IMG/VR virus record: IMGVR_UViG_3300022935_000005
Span: 186,001-250,000 of that record
Origin: a virus
Strand: one strand, 5' to 3'
DNA: 64,000 nt
Positions 4,041 through 32,023 of the stretch are shown in pieces. The notes under the pieces were generated by a model, which saw nothing but the letters and a program-made list of their open reading frames with translations, was not told where the DNA came from and made no database searches. The stretch's first letter is position 1. Every line of letters starts with the position of its first letter. Both the position numbers and the translations under genes were made by a program.

Positions 4041-4182
4041 GAATATTTCTGTGCTATTCCATATTTAATAGGGGAAAAGGTTTAATAATTTGGCTTCTAC
4101 TATACTAAGATCTTATCATGGTTTATACGACACAAGAAGCCCAAAAGAGAACAGCTTACAAAACTTAAGTGAGGAAGAACAT

Positions 4183-5265
4183 ATGTCAAGTAACAACAAA
4201 GATGATCAATACATTAACACACCTCAGGCGGATGACGATTTTGATTTCGTCATGGCATACGATGATGATCCTGCGGAGGGAGATGAAAGGCTCTTGCCTG
4301 AAAACTCTGCACGTTCCGCTATAAGCTGTGGTTTCATCGGAGTCGGGGGCGGAGGTGGAAAGCTTGCTAGCGCCTTTCTTGATGTAGGATTCAATAAGAC
4401 TCTACTAGTTAATACAACAGAGAAAGACCAGCCTGGCGGACTTGATGCAAACCACTTCCTATTAGTACCAGGCGCTGATGGTGTAGGTAAAGATGTCGAG
4501 TTGGGTAAGCAGGTTCTCGGTGAGAATTCAGCCATGGTTGAAGACGCTGTACGAACGCGTATTGGTCAGGTGGATTGGCTTTTCGTACTCGCTGGCGGCG
4601 GCGGAGGTACGGGTTCAGCTTGTCACGAGCTTCATTCTTCTCTATCACGTTATCTCGGGTCGGTAGAAGCTTCTGGCAATGTCGTCTATATAATTTCAAA
4701 GCCGACAGCTCAAGAGCTACTAAATCCAGCTATTAAGAAGAATTACTCTACCCTCATGTCGGATGTTGCCGATCACCCGCATATTGTGATCGACAATGAA
4801 AAACAGCTCCAGCTTCTGCGAGGCAAAGTTGGTATGCTTAATATGTTCCCTGCTGCTAATAAGAACTTTGCTAAGCTCTTTAGTCAAGTTCTCAAGCTTG
4901 CTGACGAGCACACCGAGATCCAGACTTTCGATAGTAAAGACCTAGAGCGTTGTCTAAAAGCTCCTGGTCGAATTGTTATTGGCTCTACGATCATCAAGGA
5001 TGTTAATAGAAATGACCTTGGGTCACTCGTCTATCAAGGATGCTTGCGTTCATCACCTTGCCCGACACCATCTGGTACTGCTACAACGGGTACACTACTT
5101 TTGATCGTCGACGGAAACATGGCTGCAGATCCTGATGTTAGTAGACGACTCGAATCAGCGTTCTCATATGTCGGTGGTAGAGCGGACGTCTTATTCTCGG
5201 GAGTTTATATGAAGGAAGGAATCCCTGGTTTAATTGGTCTAACGATGTTAGGTGGTTTGAAGTAA
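4183..5265 (+). CDS. tubulin/FtsZ-like GTPase
   Basis: A 360-residue protein of the tubulin/FtsZ fold. GFIGVGGGGGKLASAF at residues 50-65 matches the T1 nucleotide loop, and AGGGGGTGSA at 137-146 is the tubulin signature (GGGTGSG) that binds GTP phosphates. An acidic, low-complexity N-terminal extension of ~45 residues precedes it. I chose the ATG with GAGGAAG six bases upstream; the frame is also open back to a TTG at 4090. Phage homologues (PhuZ, TubZ) form filaments that centre or segregate DNA. The following gene is convergent and overlaps by 18 bases. Confidence 0.85.
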   Translation: MSSNNKDDQYINTPQADDDFDFVMAYDDDPAEGDERLLPENSARSAISCGFIGVGGGGGKLASAFLDVGFNKTLLVNTTEKDQPGGLDANHFLLVPGADGVGKDVELGKQVLGENSAMVEDAVRTRIGQVDWLFVLAGGGGGTGSACHELHSSLSRYLGSVEASGNVVYIISKPTAQELLNPAIKKNYSTLMSDVADHPHIVIDNEKQLQLLRGKVGMLNMFPAANKNFAKLFSQVLKLADEHTEIQTFDSKDLERCLKAPGRIVIGSTIIKDVNRNDLGSLVYQGCLRSSPCPTPSGTATTGTLLLIVDGNMAADPDVSRRLESAFSYVGGRADVLFSGVYMKEGIPGLIGLTMLGGLK

Positions 5266-7169: not shown

Positions 7170-7509
7170 TGGTGGACCCGTCCGGTACTGCCCCGGAGTC
7201 CAAAACAACATTAGATTAAAGTCATTCACAAGCTTGTCTGGTCATTTCTCCGGCCAGAAGGATATTCACCATAGCTTTTCGCCTCCGTTGTGAAGTGGGA
7301 GGACTGGCGGCTTTTTATTTCTTGGCAGAACCACCTGCTAAAGTCTAAATTGGATAGATGGTTTTAGACAACCACCCGACTAAGCTGCTAGAGCAACGTT
7401 GTCGTAGTGATAATTGTTATTGGCAATTATAATTGTTGAACTTTTAAGGATGTATCTTTCCTGCTTGCACTCAAACCCTCCGTCGCCCTGTCGAAACTAG
7501 TTCGGGCCC
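7170..7509 (-). ncRNA. ssrA: tmRNA (transfer-messenger RNA)
   Basis: Read on the minus strand, the RNA begins GGGCCCG and continues with AGTTTCGACAGGG, the hallmark 5' end of tmRNA. The 3' end CGGGTCC-ACCA pairs with the 5' end over seven base pairs (one G-U). An internal frame at 7424-7380 encodes ANNNYHYDNVALAA followed by TAG, a typical proteolysis tag ending in ALAA. Length 340 is normal. The 3' TPsiC-like stem TCCGG/CCGGA is present, but its loop reads GGCAGTA instead of the canonical TTCRANT. It rescues stalled ribosomes; the closest known precedent is tmRNA in Bxz1-type mycobacteriophages. Confidence 0.88.
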
Positions 7510-24283: not shown

Positions 24284-24361
24284 GGGGCTATAGCTCAATC
24301 AGGTCAGAGCAACCGGCTCATAACCGGCAGGTTGTAGGTTCAAATCCTACTAGCCCTACCA
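24284..24361 (+). tRNA. tRNA(CAU), Ile2 or Met
   Basis: Cloverleaf GGGGCTA/TAGCCCT, D-arm, anticodon loop CTCATAA, T-arm GTAGG-TTCAAAT-CCTAC and encoded ACCA. The anticodon is CAU. Directly downstream lies tilS, whose product converts C34 of tRNA-Ile(CAU) to lysidine to read AUA, so this tRNA is probably Ile2 rather than Met. The first pair is G1-U72. The copy at 27390 is nearly identical, differing only at the base of the anticodon stem. Confidence 0.85.
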
Positions 24362-24386
24362 AATGTTTAATCGGAGAAATGAATCA

Positions 24387-25040
24387 ATGATCCGACTTTC
24401 TTTTAAGCTTCCTTCTGAGATTGCAGTTGCCGTTTCTGGAGGGGCTGATTCTATGGCAGCCCTTGACTTTTTGCGACAGAATAGAAGGGTCAAGGTCCTC
24501 CACTTTAATCACGGCACCCACGGCGCCTCCGCCGCCGAGAGGGTAGTAACGAAGTATTGTGATCTACACAATCTAGAATTGGTGGTAGGCCATCTTGATG
24601 AATCCCCTGATTCGGGACAGTCACTTGAAGATTTCTGGCGTCAAGCTCGTTATTCTTTTTTTAGTGACAGTTGCGGTGGTCTTCCTGTAGTCACATGTCA
24701 TCACCTTGACGATGTGGCTGAGACATGGCTGTTCACCTCTTTGAATGGAAACCCTAAGCTTATTCCTTCTAAGAGAGACAATTACTTGAGACCCTTTCTG
24801 CAAACCCGGAAAGCCGTCTTTGAAGATTGGTGTGACAGGAAAGACGTGGTGTATCACTACGATGAGAGTAACAACGACACGAGGTTTAATAGAAACTTCA
24901 TCCGACATGAGATCATGCCTCGCGCGCTAAGGGTGAATCCGGGACTACATAAAGTTCTCCGTAAGAAGATCCAGCAAGATGTTGACGCTCATAGTTCTAT
25001 CCACCAAGAAATGCGGATGATGTGGGCAAGCCTCACATAG
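24387..25040 (+). CDS. tilS: tRNA(Ile)-lysidine synthase
   Basis: A 217-residue N-type ATP pyrophosphatase. AVSGGADSMAA is the PP-loop; VLHFNHGTHGASA, VTCHHLDDVAETW, YLRPFLQTRKAVFEDWC and DESNNDTRFNRNFIRHEIMP are the successive TilS motifs. It is shorter than bacterial TilS (~430 residues) and lacks the C-terminal tRNA-binding domains, as in minimal TilS forms. I place the start at the ATG with GGAG upstream. It modifies C34 of tRNA-Ile(CAU); the tRNA gene lies 25 bases upstream. Confidence 0.88.
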   Translation: MIRLSFKLPSEIAVAVSGGADSMAALDFLRQNRRVKVLHFNHGTHGASAAERVVTKYCDLHNLELVVGHLDESPDSGQSLEDFWRQARYSFFSDSCGGLPVVTCHHLDDVAETWLFTSLNGNPKLIPSKRDNYLRPFLQTRKAVFEDWCDRKDVVYHYDESNNDTRFNRNFIRHEIMPRALRVNPGLHKVLRKKIQQDVDAHSSIHQEMRMMWASLT

Positions 25041-25055
25041 TAACAGAGTTTAAGA

Positions 25056-25316
25056 ATGCTTAGTATTAAGACGGGTGATATTGTCAAGTTTAAACCAAAG
25101 TACTATGGCCCTAACCAACCTGACCAGTGGGTAGGTGTCACAGGTATAGTACTTGAGGTGATTGATGCCGACGGCTCGAACACTGGATTAGAAGTGCTAG
25201 TTCAGCATCCTGATGAGCCAGCACCGATACCTGTTTTTGCTTTTGTTTCTGACGTAGAAAAGGTCAACTGTGAAGTCTGTGATTGTTATCCTTGTGATTG
25301 CCACCCTTGGGACTAA
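25056..25316 (+). CDS. protein with C-terminal cysteine cluster
   Basis: An 86-residue protein: a beta-barrel-like N-terminal part (MLSIKTGDIVKFKPKYYG) and a C-terminus CEVCDCYPCDCHPWD, six Cys within fifteen residues, which is likely a metal or zinc knuckle. Function unknown. Overlaps no gene; lies between tilS and the methyltransferase. Confidence 0.6.
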   Translation: MLSIKTGDIVKFKPKYYGPNQPDQWVGVTGIVLEVIDADGSNTGLEVLVQHPDEPAPIPVFAFVSDVEKVNCEVCDCYPCDCHPWD

Positions 25317-25318
25317 AG

Positions 25319-25867
25319 ATGATTACGTATGATTTCCCTCCTTCTACTCGTTCAATGACACGTAGAGAGAGGTATGCTGAAAAGCAGAAGACAGCAGAGT
25401 ATCTACCAGTCATTATCGGCTGTGTTAATTTCGAGCATGATGGAAACCTTGCTTTCGTGATGCGTGCCGCTGCATGTTTTGGCGTGAAAGAGGTCCATGT
25501 TGTCGGATCTGTGCCCCACCGCGCAGAGCTAAAGAAGCTTTCTGGATCAATGTGCGATCTCGTAGAGATTGTTCAGCATAAGAGTCCTCGTTCATTTATC
25601 GAGTGGTGTACAGATAACCACGTGAAGATCGTAGCTGCTGAGCTTTGCGAAAAGTCTGAAAAGCTTCGTGATTATAATTTCATGTTTGAGGGTCTTACAT
25701 GCATCTTTACCGGACATGAAACATCTGGAGTCCCTGGAGAGATTATTCATGTTGCCGACTGCGTAGAGATCGATATGAGAGGCCCAGGCTTTTGCTTGAA
25801 CACCGCTCAGACGGCGAATATCATGTTGTATGAAGCATCAAAGCAGTACATCGGAGGTGCAGCTTGA
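25319..25867 (+). CDS. SpoU/TrmH-family RNA 2'-O-methyltransferase
   Basis: A 182-residue SPOUT protein. NFEHDGNLAFVMRAAACFG is motif 1, TGHETSGVPGEI motif 2 and FCLNTAQTANIMLYEASKQ motif 3 (SLNVxxxxxIxxYE). SpoU enzymes methylate the ribose of tRNA or rRNA using SAM, commonly Gm18 of tRNA. Placed next to tilS and the tRNA cluster, a tRNA target is likely. The start ATG follows an overlapping stop. Confidence 0.85.
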   Translation: MITYDFPPSTRSMTRRERYAEKQKTAEYLPVIIGCVNFEHDGNLAFVMRAAACFGVKEVHVVGSVPHRAELKKLSGSMCDLVEIVQHKSPRSFIEWCTDNHVKIVAAELCEKSEKLRDYNFMFEGLTCIFTGHETSGVPGEIIHVADCVEIDMRGPGFCLNTAQTANIMLYEASKQYIGGAA

Positions 25868-26884: not shown

Positions 26885-27166
26885 GCGCTCATAGCTCAGC
26901 TGGATAGAGCAACGGCCTTTAAGCAATAGGAGCCTCATATTGGAAACAGTATGTTGCGTACACTCTCAAATTCGGGGAAACCTTTAAAATGGCAATCCCG
27001 AGCCAAGCCTCGAAAGAGGAAGGTGTAGAGACTAAACGGGAGTGGCCTAAGTCCCAATGGGATATGGTTGAGAGATAGTCCAGACCACAAACACTTCGGT
27101 GGTAGCGAAAGCTATAGTGGTAAGCTAAGCCGTGGGTCCCAGGTTCGAGTCCTGGTGAGCGCGCCA
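26885..27166 (+). tRNA. tRNA-Arg(UCU) split by a group I intron
   Basis: Exons join as GCGCTCA...ACGGC-CTTCTAA-GCCGT...CCAGG-TTCGAGT-CCTGG-TGAGCGC-GCCA, a close match to bacterial tRNA-Arg(UCU). The intron (26920-27124) interrupts the anticodon loop between U34 and C35, ends in G as group I introns do, and carries the core elements described in the intron entry. CCA is encoded. Confidence 0.88.
26920..27124 (+). other. group I intron in tRNA-Arg
   Basis: A 205-base intron. AATTCGGGGAAACC, AATCCCGAGCCAAGC, GGTGTAGAGACTA and ATAGTCCAGACCACAAAC correspond to conserved group I core stretches (P, Q, R, S), with a P9-like hairpin at the end (TTCGGTGG...). The same stretches recur in the two other introns, so they are recent relatives. 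No endonuclease gene inside. Confidence 0.85.
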
Positions 27167-27177
27167 TTTATGTGGGG

Positions 27178-27258
27178 GACACAGACCAGAGAGAAACAGG
27201 TGATGCTGGCTCGTGGTTGCGTAAGCGTGGTCGAAGTACTGACCTTACAGGCTGTGTC
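27178..27258 (+). ncRNA. candidate small structured RNA
   Basis: GACACAG at 27178-27184 pairs perfectly with CTGTGTC at 27252-27258, enclosing about 67 bases, and a terminator follows at once. It lies between the tRNA-Arg gene and the next promoter, and contains no plausible protein gene. It may be processed from the tRNA-Arg transcript. Structure beyond the closing helix is not resolved. Confidence 0.4.
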
Positions 27259-27260
27259 TA

Positions 27261-27291
27261 GATGAGGAAGCTGGGAACCTCATCACTTTTT
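27261..27291 (+). terminator. rho-independent terminator
   Basis: GATGAGG at 27261-27267 pairs with CCTCATC at 27278-27284, followed by A-C and a run of five T at 27287-27291. It ends the tRNA-Arg transcript. Confidence 0.75.
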
Positions 27292-27316
27292 CTTCAAAAA
27301 ATATATCGCTGAAGTC

Positions 27317-27345
27317 TTGTAAACACAGGTCCTTGGAGATATAAT
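27317..27345 (+). promoter_or_regulatory. promoter of the second tRNA unit
   Basis: TTGTAA at 27317-27322, 17-base spacer, TATAAT at 27340-27345. Downstream leader hairpin GTTGGTGG (27358-27365) with CCAC-A-CAAC (27371-27379). Drives tRNA(CAU) copy 2 and the following genes. Confidence 0.68.
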
Positions 27346-27389
27346 CTAAAAGTAAAAGTTGGTGGAAATACCACACAACTTCAAAATAC

Positions 27390-27467
27390 GGGGCTATAGC
27401 TCAATCAGGTCAGAGCGTCCGGCTCATAACCGGCAGGTTGTAGGTTCAAATCCTACTAGCCCTACCA
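27390..27467 (+). tRNA. tRNA(CAU), second copy
   Basis: Nearly identical to 24284-24361 (same acceptor, anticodon loop CTCATAA and T-arm), differing in two bases just before the anticodon stem. Anticodon CAU; could serve as Met or, after lysidine formation, Ile2. G1-U72 first pair as in the other copy. Encoded ACCA. Confidence 0.85.
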
Positions 27468-27472
27468 ATTTT

Positions 27473-27796
27473 GGCTGAATGGTGGAATCGGTATACACAG
27501 GAGACTTCGCGGGATCAAGGTAAAAACTTGATCAAATATTGAGCACCTTGGGAGAAATCCCATGAGTGAATCTGGTCAAATTCGGGGAAACCTTAACAGA
27601 TAAAGCTGATGGCAATCCCGAGCCAAGCCCGAAAGGGAAGGTGTAGAGACTTGACGGCCAGCCCTTAACAGGTAATGCTGAAGGTGAAGAGAAAGTCCAG
27701 ACCACAAACAACTTCGGTTGGCAGTGAAAACTGTAGAGGGTAAGAAAATCTCCCGGTCACATGACCTTGCGGGTTCGAGTCCCGCTTCAGCTACCA
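27473..27796 (+). tRNA. tRNA-Leu(UAA) split by a group I intron
   Basis: Class II tRNA: GGCTGAA/TTCAGCT acceptor with G1-U72, D-arm GTGGAATCGGTATACAC, joined anticodon stem-loop GGAGA-CTTAAAA-TCTCC, a long variable arm (CGGTCACATGACC) and T-arm GCGGG-TTCGAGT-CCCGC, ending ACCA. The intron interrupts between U34 and A35, as in the tRNA-Leu(UAA) introns of cyanobacteria and chloroplasts. Confidence 0.88.
27508..27744 (+). other. group I intron in tRNA-Leu
   Basis: A 237-base intron ending in G, with the core strings AATTCGGGGAAACC, AATCCCGAGCCAAGC and GGTGTAGAGACT and the AAGTCCAGACCACAAAC segment. Longer than the Arg intron mainly through inserts in the first part and in the region before AAGTCCAGACC. 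No open reading frame. Confidence 0.85.
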
Positions 27797-27952
27797 ATCA
27801 TCGATATATTTATCAACAACAAAATCGTCATTGGGTGTTTCGGTGACGTTGCAACGCCGCTGGCGCCATAGTACATTATACCTAGTACATGTGAACCCAG
27901 GAGAAACACCCTCCTGGTAGTAACATCATTCCGACATATTCATAACACATAT
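27797..27952 (+). other. tRNA spacer with hairpin
   Basis: No gene seen. Contains a promoter-like TTGCAA with a TTATAC box about 20 bases later, and an inverted repeat CCAGGAG...CTCCTGG (27899-27919 region) that could be a leader hairpin or a processing site before tRNA-Asn. Confidence 0.35.
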
Positions 27953-28027
27953 TGGGGAGTAACTCAGTGGTAGAGTGCGCGGCTGTTAACCGCTCGGTCG
28001 TGGGTTCGAATCCCACCTTCCCAGCCA
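27953..28027 (+). tRNA. tRNA-Asn(GUU)
   Basis: TGGGGAG/CTTCCCA acceptor, anticodon stem-loop CGCGG-CTGTTAA-CCGCT with anticodon GUU, T-arm GTGGG-TTCGAAT-CCCAC, encoded GCCA. Confidence 0.9.
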
Positions 28028-28033
28028 TCTTTC

Positions 28034-28108
28034 GCTCCCATAGTTTAACGGTAAGAATTCGGCGTTTTCACCGCTGCGGTAGGGGTTCGATTCCCCTTGG
28101 GAGTACCA
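28034..28108 (+). tRNA. tRNA-Glu(UUC)
   Basis: GCTCCCA/TGGGAGT acceptor (G1-U72), anticodon stem-loop CGGCG-TTTTCAC-CGCTG with anticodon UUC, T-arm AGGGG-TTCGATT-CCCCT, encoded ACCA. Seven bases after tRNA-Asn. Confidence 0.88.
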
Positions 28109-28143
28109 AAACTTTTCGCTATTTCAAATATTGATATAATTTA

Positions 28144-28417
28144 GGGCCTATAGCTCAACAGGTAGAGCATCGGACTTTCAATGGGAGCTTCATCAGGTAA
28201 CTGATGTCGAATAACTGCTCAAATTCGGGGAACTCTTAACAGGTAATGCTGATGACAATCCCGAGCCAAGCTTCGAAAGAAGAAGGTGTAGAGACTAGAC
28301 GGGCAGCACCCCACGTGGGTGAAGGGATAGTCCAGACCACAAACACTTCGGTGGTAGCGAAAGCTATAGTGGTACGTAATCCGCAGGTTCAGGGTTCGAG
28401 TCCCTGTGGGCCCACCA
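28144..28417 (+). tRNA. tRNA-Lys(UUU) split by a group I intron
   Basis: GGGCCTA/TGGGCCC acceptor, joined anticodon stem-loop CGGA-CTTTTAA-TCCG with anticodon UUU, T-arm CAGGG-TTCGAGT-CCCTG, encoded ACCA. The intron ends in G and interrupts, by my reading, between U35 and U36, one base further than in the Arg and Leu genes. Confidence 0.85.
28179..28376 (+). other. group I intron in tRNA-Lys
   Basis: A 198-base intron with the same core strings as the other two (AATTCGGGGAAC, CAATCCCGAGCCAAGC, GGTGTAGAGACTAGACGG, ATAGTCCAGACCACAAAC) and an almost identical 3' segment (ACTTCGGTGGTAGCGAAAGC). The similarity to the Arg intron is high enough to suggest recent spread between tRNA genes of the same phage. 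Confidence 0.85.
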
Positions 28418-29085: not shown

Positions 29086-29147
29086 CCTATAGATAGATTA
29101 AAGGATAGAAAAAACTGATGAACAAAAGTGTTTAATACCTTCTTATC

Positions 29148-29313
29148 GGGGGTAGGCTTCAGAAGCTTAGGGTCCTGCGGTTTCTGGTGACATTCGGGAA
29201 GCTTTTTGCTGTGTATGTGAAACATGTCAAGGCCCCTTGGCATGAAGTAACTTTGGAAAAGTTGTTCTTTTGCGTTTAAATGAAGAAGGTTATGCCTTCC
29301 CGATTCTACCCCC
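29148..29313 (+). ncRNA. candidate structured RNA of unknown class
   Basis: A 166-base region without a coding frame. GGGGGTAG at 29148-29155 pairs with CTACCCCC at 29306-29313; nested inside, TCGGGAAG at 29194-29201 pairs with CTTCCCGA at 29296-29303; two local hairpins follow: CATGTCAAG/CTTGGCATG (29223-29244) and AACTTT/AAAGTT (29249-29263). Two 8-bp perfect nested helices 100 or more bases apart are unlikely by chance. It lies between a promoter and tRNA-Thr, so it is transcribed. I do not recognise it as RNase P, 6S or tmRNA. Confidence 0.6.
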
Positions 29314-29320
29314 ACTTTTT

Positions 29321-29396: not shown

Positions 29397-29431
29397 TTTT
29401 GTTAGCAAGAGCAGGAGCTATATAAGAATTG

Positions 29432-30097
29432 ATGCCCGAAGTACTAGATCAAGCGATATACCTTTTAGCAGCCGCCTCTCTCGGTTCTATGATCGGACTA
29501 GAGAGAGAAGTGCATGGCCAACCTGCTGGTCTTAGGACACACATGATCCTCTCCACTGGGGCTGCGCTAGCTGCAATACTATCCATATCATATTCTCAAT
29601 TTCTGTCAAATCCAGACTTGCCGTCTGACCCTGGTCGCATTGTAGCTCAAGTAGTCAGCGGAGTGGGTTTTCTCGGCGCCGGCGCGATTATGAAGATGGG
29701 CGTTACTGTTAAGGGGCTAACAACGGCTAGCTCACTTTGGACGACTGCTATCGTAGGTATTGCGTGCGGTAGCGGCTATTTAGAGCTTGGGGCTATAACG
29801 ACGGTCCTCGTGTTTGTGATCTTGACAATTATTAATAAGGTTGAGAAAGCCTTGTTGACGACGTACAAAACTCACACTCTTAAAATTACTCTAGATGATA
29901 GACCTGGGATCGTGAAAGACGTCAAGACTTGCCTCGAGGAAAATAACGTCAAGCTTGTGTCTTTAAGCGCTGGTATGCCTGATAGAGAGAGTCTAAATCT
30001 TTCCATGGTGATCAGGAAACCTGAAGATCTTGGCATGGACAGTCTAATAAATACTTTGAACGGGTTCGCCGAGACTCGGTCGATGGATTTAAAATGA
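29432..30097 (+). CDS. mgtC: MgtC/SapB-family membrane protein
   Basis: A 221-residue protein. GLEREVHGQPAGLRTHMIL and GVGFLGAGAIMKMG...GLTTASSLW are the two signatures of MgtC, within four to five membrane helices; the C-terminal ~80 residues form an ACT-like soluble domain (TLKITLDDRPGIVKDV). MgtC of pathogens inhibits the F1Fo ATP synthase and adapts cells to low magnesium. A phage copy is unexpected. Start ATG follows GCAGGAG; a TTG three bases earlier is possible. Confidence 0.85.
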   Translation: MPEVLDQAIYLLAAASLGSMIGLEREVHGQPAGLRTHMILSTGAALAAILSISYSQFLSNPDLPSDPGRIVAQVVSGVGFLGAGAIMKMGVTVKGLTTASSLWTTAIVGIACGSGYLELGAITTVLVFVILTIINKVEKALLTTYKTHTLKITLDDRPGIVKDVKTCLEENNVKLVSLSAGMPDRESLNLSMVIRKPEDLGMDSLINTLNGFAETRSMDLK

Positions 30098-30550: not shown

Positions 30551-32023
30551 ATGATGCATTATAACACAGACTCAAAAATTCTCGCTGAGATATCAGTGAA
30601 TAAGGGGGAGAGCGTAAAGCTAAAGACAGGTGCTATCTGTACTGAGACTGGCACCTACAAGGGTCGAGCTCCTTCTGCTAAATCTTACGCTATAGATGAG
30701 ATTACGAGGGACAAAATTGACTGGTCTGCCAATAGAGGGATATCAGAAGATGAATTCGCGGAAGAGCTTTCTGCGTTCCAAGATTATAAGGGTACAATAG
30801 TTCCCTTATTTTGTCAAGAGCTGCAAGCGGTTAGAGATACAGGTCATAGAACTGACATTGTCGTTTTTACGGAAATGGCTCACCACGCATTGTTCGCCAG
30901 GAACATGTTCATTACGGATGTCGTGGGATTCGGGAAAACACAGCAGCCATGGCGGATTTATCACTTCCCAAAAAAAGAGGAAGAAGCTAAAGTACTAATA
31001 TCTTTCAAGAAGAAAGCGATTCTGATCACTGGGACATTTTATTCGGGAGAGATCAAGAAGAGTATTTTTTCGGTACTAAATTTCGAGTTTCCTCAATCTG
31101 GCCACTTGCCGATGCATTGCTCAGTGAATGTAGACAAAGAGCGAAGGAACCCTGCTGTTTTCTTCGGTCTGTCAGGAACAGGAAAGACAACTCTTTCTTC
31201 TGACGAAAATCGCATTTTGATCGGTGACGACGAGCATGGGTGGACCGATAGCGGCTTGACTAATTTCGAAGGCGGTTGCTATGCGAAGACGATTCGACTA
31301 TCTAAAGAAGCTGAACCCCAGATCTGGGATGCGTGCAATAAGCCTGGAACAATATTGGAGAATGTTGCCTTTAATGAAGACCTGATGCCGGATTTTGATG
31401 ACGGCACTCTTACCGAGAACAGCAGAGCTTCATACGCATGTTCTAGTGTTCCCGGCGCTGATCATAAAGGGTATGTCAATGAACACCCTGAGAACGTTAT
31501 CATGCTTACCTGTGACGCATTTGGTGTGCTACCTCCAGTGATGAAACTGTCACCTGACGAGGCTGTTACACAATTTTTGCTTGGTTATACCGCGAAAGTA
31601 GCCGGTACTGAAGCTGGTGTCGTAGAACCGCAAGCAACATTCTCTGCATGCTTTGGCGCTCCCTTCATGCCTCTGCACCCTCGAGAGTATGCTGCTATCT
31701 TAAGGGAAAAGTTGGTAAAACACGGCACCTCGTGTTGGCTGGTGAATACTGGCTGGACGGGAGGCTCTTACGGAGTGGGAAGAAGAATGCCGATATCTAC
31801 TACGAGAGAGATTATCCAGAAGATTCATACCGGTGAGTTACGAGACTGCGCTACATTCGTTCATGAACCAACAGGCTTTACAGTACCGGACTGCGATAGT
31901 ATTGAAGAAACAATTCTTTACCCAGAAAAGGGCTGGAGCTCTAGAGAAGATTATGATTCCAAGTCTGCTGAGCTAATGTCTTTGTTCCGGGAACAGATGA
32001 AAAACATTGGGATCTCTAGTTAA
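30551..32023 (+). CDS. pckA: phosphoenolpyruvate carboxykinase (ATP)
   Basis: A 490-residue enzyme that interconverts oxaloacetate + ATP and PEP + CO2 + ADP. GEIKKSIFSVLNF near 166 matches the substrate loop, FFGLSGTGKTTLSSD at ~204-218 the kinase-1a P-loop, and LIGDDEHGW at 223-231 kinase-2. NFEGGCYAK follows. It is 40-50 residues shorter than typical bacterial PckA, apparently from the N-terminus, with all catalytic motifs kept. I do not know it as a usual phage gene. Sits downstream of mgtC and the deaminase. Confidence 0.92.
   Translation: MMHYNTDSKILAEISVNKGESVKLKTGAICTETGTYKGRAPSAKSYAIDEITRDKIDWSANRGISEDEFAEELSAFQDYKGTIVPLFCQELQAVRDTGHRTDIVVFTEMAHHALFARNMFITDVVGFGKTQQPWRIYHFPKKEEEAKVLISFKKKAILITGTFYSGEIKKSIFSVLNFEFPQSGHLPMHCSVNVDKERRNPAVFFGLSGTGKTTLSSDENRILIGDDEHGWTDSGLTNFEGGCYAKTIRLSKEAEPQIWDACNKPGTILENVAFNEDLMPDFDDGTLTENSRASYACSSVPGADHKGYVNEHPENVIMLTCDAFGVLPPVMKLSPDEAVTQFLLGYTAKVAGTEAGVVEPQATFSACFGAPFMPLHPREYAAILREKLVKHGTSCWLVNTGWTGGSYGVGRRMPISTTREIIQKIHTGELRDCATFVHEPTGFTVPDCDSIEETILYPEKGWSSREDYDSKSAELMSLFREQMKNIGISS

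Follow-up and report, generated by a model that had tools for sequence, protein, structure and literature searches.

Small group I introns of approximately 200-250 nt occupy sites in the anticodon loop of bacterial tRNA genes and usually lack an endonuclease gene. The introns of T4 td/nrdB/nrdD, SPO1, Twort, and Bastille-like phages belong to the same self-splicing class, but are located in protein genes and often carry homing endonucleases. A 2014 review knew of no phage tRNA intron and placed all known phage group I introns in protein genes (PMC3984707), and introns were not mentioned in a 2019 survey of virus tRNA genes (PMC6409571) or in the huge-phage paper (PMC7162821). The group I introns of bacterial tmRNA, which are also small, mostly without an endonuclease, and inserted in a tRNA-like RNA, differ in their T-loop location with four subsites (PMC11915505). 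In the open-access literature, we found no later account of phage tRNA genes interrupted by group I introns, which does not establish priority. Such an intron is present in a Leu tRNA of LR756501, a 735-kb record of an uncultured phage, and the annotated tRNA-Arg of Microcoleus phage My-WqHQDG (OR578706) spans 286 nt with a related intron inside (RF00028 match); the latter phage differs from the present one in having one intron only, which is unannotated.

The DNA analyzed in the present study (hereafter, the window) comprises 64,000 nt, corresponding to positions 186001-250000 of the 280,913-b IMG/VR virus record IMGVR_UViG_3300022935_000005, and contains a tRNA cluster at 26.9-29.4 kb with six intact tRNAs detected by ARAGORN. 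A preliminary description had placed three group I introns in the Arg, Leu, and Lys tRNA genes of this cluster, and the Rfam model search bore this out, with clean tRNAs remaining once the introns were removed (Table 1). These were the only group I introns found in the whole record, and all three lie within 1.5 kb. They share the catalytic core with bacterial tRNA introns, and core strings in common were found in the bacterial Leu(UAA) introns of the GTDB scan; what sets them apart is that they are phage-borne and reside in a phage tRNA cluster. The core strings noticed earlier are indeed common to the three, but represent the conserved catalytic core of hundreds of viral and bacterial introns and are not special to this locus. 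The Leu site at 34/35 with the guide GAG is that of the cyanobacterial intron. Insertion at 34/35 in Arg(UCU) and at 35/36 in Lys(UUU) adds two host sites, both of which also occur in bacteria. In kind, the introns are ordinary small tRNA introns, and the phage setting and its frequency seem to be new. We consider it very probable that they are endonuclease-free introns of the tRNA type, drawn from a pool in phages and bacteria and gained or inherited separately, with the P9 domain exchanged or shared.

Table 1. Positions of the intron-bearing tRNA genes and their parts in the window.
Feature	Position	Strand	RF00028 (bits)	Remarks
tRNA-Arg(UCU) gene	26885-27166	+		intron included
5' exon, Arg	26885..26919	+		ends ...GGCCTT (U34)
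Group I intron, Arg	26920..27124	+	62.6	205 nt; final base G; site 34/35
Guide, Arg	26927..26932	+		UAG-GAG; GAG with exon CUU (P1), UAG with 3' exon CUA (P10)
P3 5' strand, Arg	26962..26967	+		ACUCUC; partner GGGAGU, 27038-27043
P7 5' strand, Arg	27030..27034	+		GACUA; partner UAGUC, 27076-27080
3' part of intron, Arg	27077..27124	+		P7 3' strand and P9 domain; 47/48 identical to Lys counterpart
3' exon, Arg	27125..27166	+		with CCA
tRNA-Leu(UAA) gene	27473-27796	+		intron included
5' exon, Leu	27473..27507	+		ends ...GAGACTT (U34)
Group I intron, Leu	27508..27744	+	70.2	237 nt; site 34/35
Extra hairpin, Leu	27513..27533	+		GATCAAG/CTTGATC, between splice site and guide; read from sequence and alignments
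Guide, Leu	27539..27543	+		UU-GAG; P1 with CUU, P10 with AA
3' exon, Leu	27745..27796	+		with CCA
tRNA-Lys(UUU) gene	28144-28417	+		intron included
5' exon, Lys	28144..28178	+		ends ...GGACTTT (U35)
Group I intron, Lys	28179..28376	+	49.2	198 nt; final base G; site 35/36
Guide, Lys	28182..28187	+		UG-GGAG; GGAG with exon CUUU (P1), UG with 3' exon UA (P10)
3' part of intron, Lys	28329..28376	+		P7 3' strand and P9 domain; common to Arg intron
3' exon, Lys	28377..28417	+		with CCA

The covariance-model check that had been proposed beforehand placed the Arg and Leu introns above the curated RF00028 cut-off of 50 bits and the Lys intron just under it. E-values were 1.7e-13 for Arg and 8.9e-16 for Leu in the 64-kb window, and 4.4e-11 (1.65-kb stretch) or 1.8e-12 (single-family genome search) for Lys, and chance is therefore excluded for all three. 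Our splice caller required acceptor, D, anticodon, and T stems, a 7-base loop, a U before the intron, and a G ending it; the resulting exons gave exact 7-nt anticodon loops, the U/G ends being preset by the caller, and in silico splicing yielded three normal tRNA folds with CCA (Arg-TCT, Leu-TAA, and Lys-TTT). The insertion sites suggested previously were confirmed, including that of Lys at 35/36: its 3' exon has only TAA before the stem, such that the anticodon loop would be 6 nt long if the junction were at 34/35, and the guide GGAG pairs with CUUU. The Leu intron is the longest of the three because of its extra hairpin. The sizes and the lack of an endonuclease gene also agreed with the earlier account: no such gene was found in any of the three introns, the longest stop-free stretches of which were 51-70 aa. 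The endonuclease search detected a lone GIY-YIG domain approximately 37 kb downstream of the introns and no HNH domain. None of the three unspliced genes was called by ARAGORN without its intron option, and the intron mode recovered Arg(TCT) and Leu(TAA) with misplaced splice sites and miscalled Lys as SeC. Standard tRNA finders miss or miscall intron-bearing genes, and phage tRNA repertoires are therefore undercounted.

Regarding the guide sequence, GAG was present near the intron start in 108 of the 110 site-34/35 introns among the matches listed, nearly all of which had the exon CTT. At this site, GAG can pair with C32-U33-U34, and the U opposite G is the cut point. The bases immediately upstream of GAG (of GGAG in Lys) pair as P10 with the 3' exon of the same gene, with three pairs in the Arg intron and two each in the Leu and Lys introns of the window. 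The mean P10 run at site 34/35 was 2.22, against a maximum of 1.60 in 1000 shuffles that ignored relatedness, and it was specific to the tRNA: introns of non-Leu genes averaged 2.48 with their own exon vs 0.06 with the Leu exon, and those of Leu genes 2.12 vs 0.08 with the Arg exon. At site 35/36, the guide was mostly GNAG, in which N complements base 34 (GGAG in Lys and GCAG in Asn), except for one Lys intron (L289) without GGAG; rows that the splice caller had assigned to 'Thr(TGT) 33/34' more plausibly represent Asn(GTT) 35/36. Two-step splicing requires an intron to match its tRNA at either junction, and the pairing of the guide with both exons provides this match in all three introns. A testable rule links the guide sequence to the anticodon.

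In order to evaluate the ribozyme fold, we built a structure-blind alignment of 50 diverged homologues, which came from viral contigs as well as from bacterial genomes, and counted on it a structure read from the Arg intron. Pairing was retained in 96.2% of cells, both sides had changed at 29 of the 45 pairs, none of 500 shuffles (which ignored relatedness) matched the observed pairing, and sliding the partners by 1-3 columns reduced it to 23-45%. P3, P4, P6, and P7 were paired in 100% of the 50 sequences. In P3, one limb of the P3-P7 pseudoknot, five of the six pairs covaried with 50/50 sequences paired, while P7 had a single variable pair (A-U, U-A, or G-C) that was always paired, and the Leu intron of the window showed one P7 double change (GACUU/AAGUC). 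The alignment with bacterial tRNA-Leu(UAA) introns extended from end to end of the introns, which appear to be of the bacterial tRNA type, IC3-like, a subgroup assignment based on resemblance, not on a subgroup model.

Comparison shows the fold, the splice sites, and the exon pairings, from which we infer splicing. The intron part of each pre-tRNA would fold into a ribozyme, the guide of which would dock the 5' exon with U34 or U35 opposite G; guanosine would then cleave after that U, and the freed 5' exon would attack after the terminal G of the intron with the help of P10 pairing to the 3' exon, leaving a normal Arg(UCU), Leu(UAA), or Lys(UUU) tRNA. The score of the Lys intron just below the Rfam cut-off might be taken as a sign of degenerate introns, with ribozymes that have lost their activity or splice poorly and three tRNAs that either fail to be produced or depend on a host helper protein. 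We regard such degeneration as very unlikely, considering the intact P3, P4, P6, and P7, the U and G at the intron ends, the P1 and P10 matches to exons that fold as intact tRNAs, and the copies in three further contigs from near-identical phages, in which the introns are 100% identical wherever the stretches compared cover them. Judging from these sequence features, the three introns are most likely functional.

The kinship of the three introns was assessed using careful trees of 52 introns and approximately 220 alignment columns, in which the part before P9 and P9 itself were also analyzed separately. The preliminary description had suggested a recent spread within the genome. In a recent burst, a single intron would have entered the phage and given rise to copies in two more of its tRNA genes. 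The occurrence of three introns in 1.5 kb, a P9 domain that is near-identical between the Arg and Lys introns, and the UUCG loops in all three P9 domains are in favor of such a burst. However, the three were only 63-73% identical before P9, and their union in one group was rejected both for whole introns (AU p 0.00025) and for the part before P9 (AU p 1.6e-5), as was each pair before P9 (AU p 0.002-0.005). The Arg and Lys introns also have nearer kin in other phages: the former forms a clade with an Arg intron (L249) and a Leu intron (L115) with support of 100/97, and the latter is sister to a Lys 35/36 intron (L250; 95/89) and then joins two Asn introns (96/93). The Leu intron had no firm placement. 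A quick 131-row tree, in which a single clade was not rejectable, was discarded because the constrained trees beat the free tree in the AU test, indicating too shallow a search. A burst is thus quite improbable for the whole introns, and these tree results argue that, outside P9, the three are separate lineages that were acquired or inherited separately.

Only in the P9 of the Arg and Lys introns did the suggested spread find support: the P9 tree, based on 53 columns, united them in one clade (98/96). P9 identity of 95% or more was found in nine of the 3165 intron pairs with similar pre-P9 identity among the matches listed; P9 mosaics, although rare, are therefore not confined to the Arg and Lys pair. 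The tRNA type was no more clustered on the P9 tree than in shuffled data (16 changes vs 16.7), whereas it was clustered on the tree of the remainder (11 vs 16.6). P9, on the evidence of this 53-column tree, seems to move between introns independently, and a within-genome exchange of the P9 domain alone probably took place between the neighboring Arg and Lys introns. In our preferred reading of separate lineages, the introns would originate from a pool common to phages and bacteria and would sit where a suitably positioned U is available in the anticodon loop, a new tRNA host requiring a change of just a few guide bases; after their separate gain or inheritance, the Arg and Lys copies would have exchanged P9 or both acquired a common one. 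A clean empty site was not found in a close relative by synteny using the MgtC protein; the sole diverged relative identified in this manner (L408, 71%) is without tRNAs at that place.

Viral contigs were covered by three pattern scans and bacterial genomes (GTDB) by one, and these detected at least 239 viral and at least 118 bacterial cores, of which at least 128 and 94, respectively, passed as tRNA introns, corresponding to at least 64 viral and 86 bacterial introns that were non-redundant at 93% identity. Among the matches listed, the viral host tRNAs were Leu(UAA), Arg(UCU), Lys(UUU, CUU), Asn, Gln, Glu, Ile, and CAU, the rarer types being represented by single rows each. The occurrence of tRNA-type introns in more than 100 phage contigs, a widespread pool that has received little description, contrasts with reviews that place phage group I introns in protein genes only. 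Their distribution is patchy, in that other phages combine intron-free Leu, Arg, or Lys genes with tRNA genes that have an intron: G008 has an intron in Arg and none in its Lys or Leu genes, L250 has one in Lys and none in Leu, and L115 has one in Leu and none in Arg. Anticodon nucleases of the host cut within the anticodon loop. That the introns serve the phage, by hiding its tRNAs from these nucleases until splicing or by timing the tRNA supply, would fit their insertion inside this loop and their repeated occurrence in phages, but is most improbable given that such introns are common in bacterial tRNA genes, that the site is set by chemistry (U at the junction), and that intron-free copies of these tRNAs are frequent in phages.

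The closest relative of the window Arg intron among the matches listed is the Leu-gene intron of L115, with 83% identity in the intron vs 48% in the exons, which indicates an isotype switch between non-homologous genes for which DNA homing is not an easy explanation; reverse splicing could be the route. We raise, as a tentative possibility, the broader view that endonuclease-free introns transpose between non-homologous phage tRNA genes, plausibly by reverse splicing into the anticodon loop, with the guide re-matched to each anticodon and P9 freely exchanged between resident introns, and that bacterial tRNA introns would then have in phages one of their main reservoirs and carriers. Guide-anticodon matching together with isotype switches makes the spread of endonuclease-free introns testable in phages.

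Matches in Pelagiphages, which were initially taken for tRNA introns, proved to be located between two capsid ORFs. In Pelagibacter phage HTVC120P and Deep1-GF2-KM23-C739 (L124 and L128), related group I introns separate two ORFs annotated 'capsid protein', which are probably one gene with an unannotated intron. Five group I introns were also found in a phage capsid-like gene region of IMGVR_UViG_3300037840_000553 (L409, 21000-24746; also L262), four of which are in tandem with only approximately 15-30 nt between model matches; exons this short would be highly atypical of phage genes.

Several other features of the window were noted. A seventh intact tRNA, with the anticodon CAT, was detected by ARAGORN at 24284, directly followed by a TilS-like PP-loop protein (PF01171, 6.8e-34; 24284-25040); this tRNA and the near-identical CAT tRNA at 27390 may be Ile2 rather than Met, with C34 modified by the TilS-like protein. 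A SpoU-family RNA methyltransferase (25298-25867) is encoded immediately upstream of the tRNA cluster. Structured-looking non-coding stretches without an Rfam match occur in the cluster at 27167-27300, 27800-27950, and 29105-29320, the last of which has the ends gggggtag/ctaccccc. An MgtC-family membrane protein gene (29429-30097) adjoins that of an ATP-type phosphoenolpyruvate carboxykinase (PF01293, 541 bits; 30551-32023), which is thus present in a phage genome. The phage also encodes a full-length tmRNA (77.8 bits) with CCA at 7170-7509 (-), which was absent from the ARAGORN scan output and has the tag sequence ANNNYHYDNVALAA; an overlapping permuted-tmRNA match covers the shared 5' part only. 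At 4090-5265, a weak tubulin/FtsZ match (7e-5, below the cut-off) possibly represents a PhuZ-like protein.
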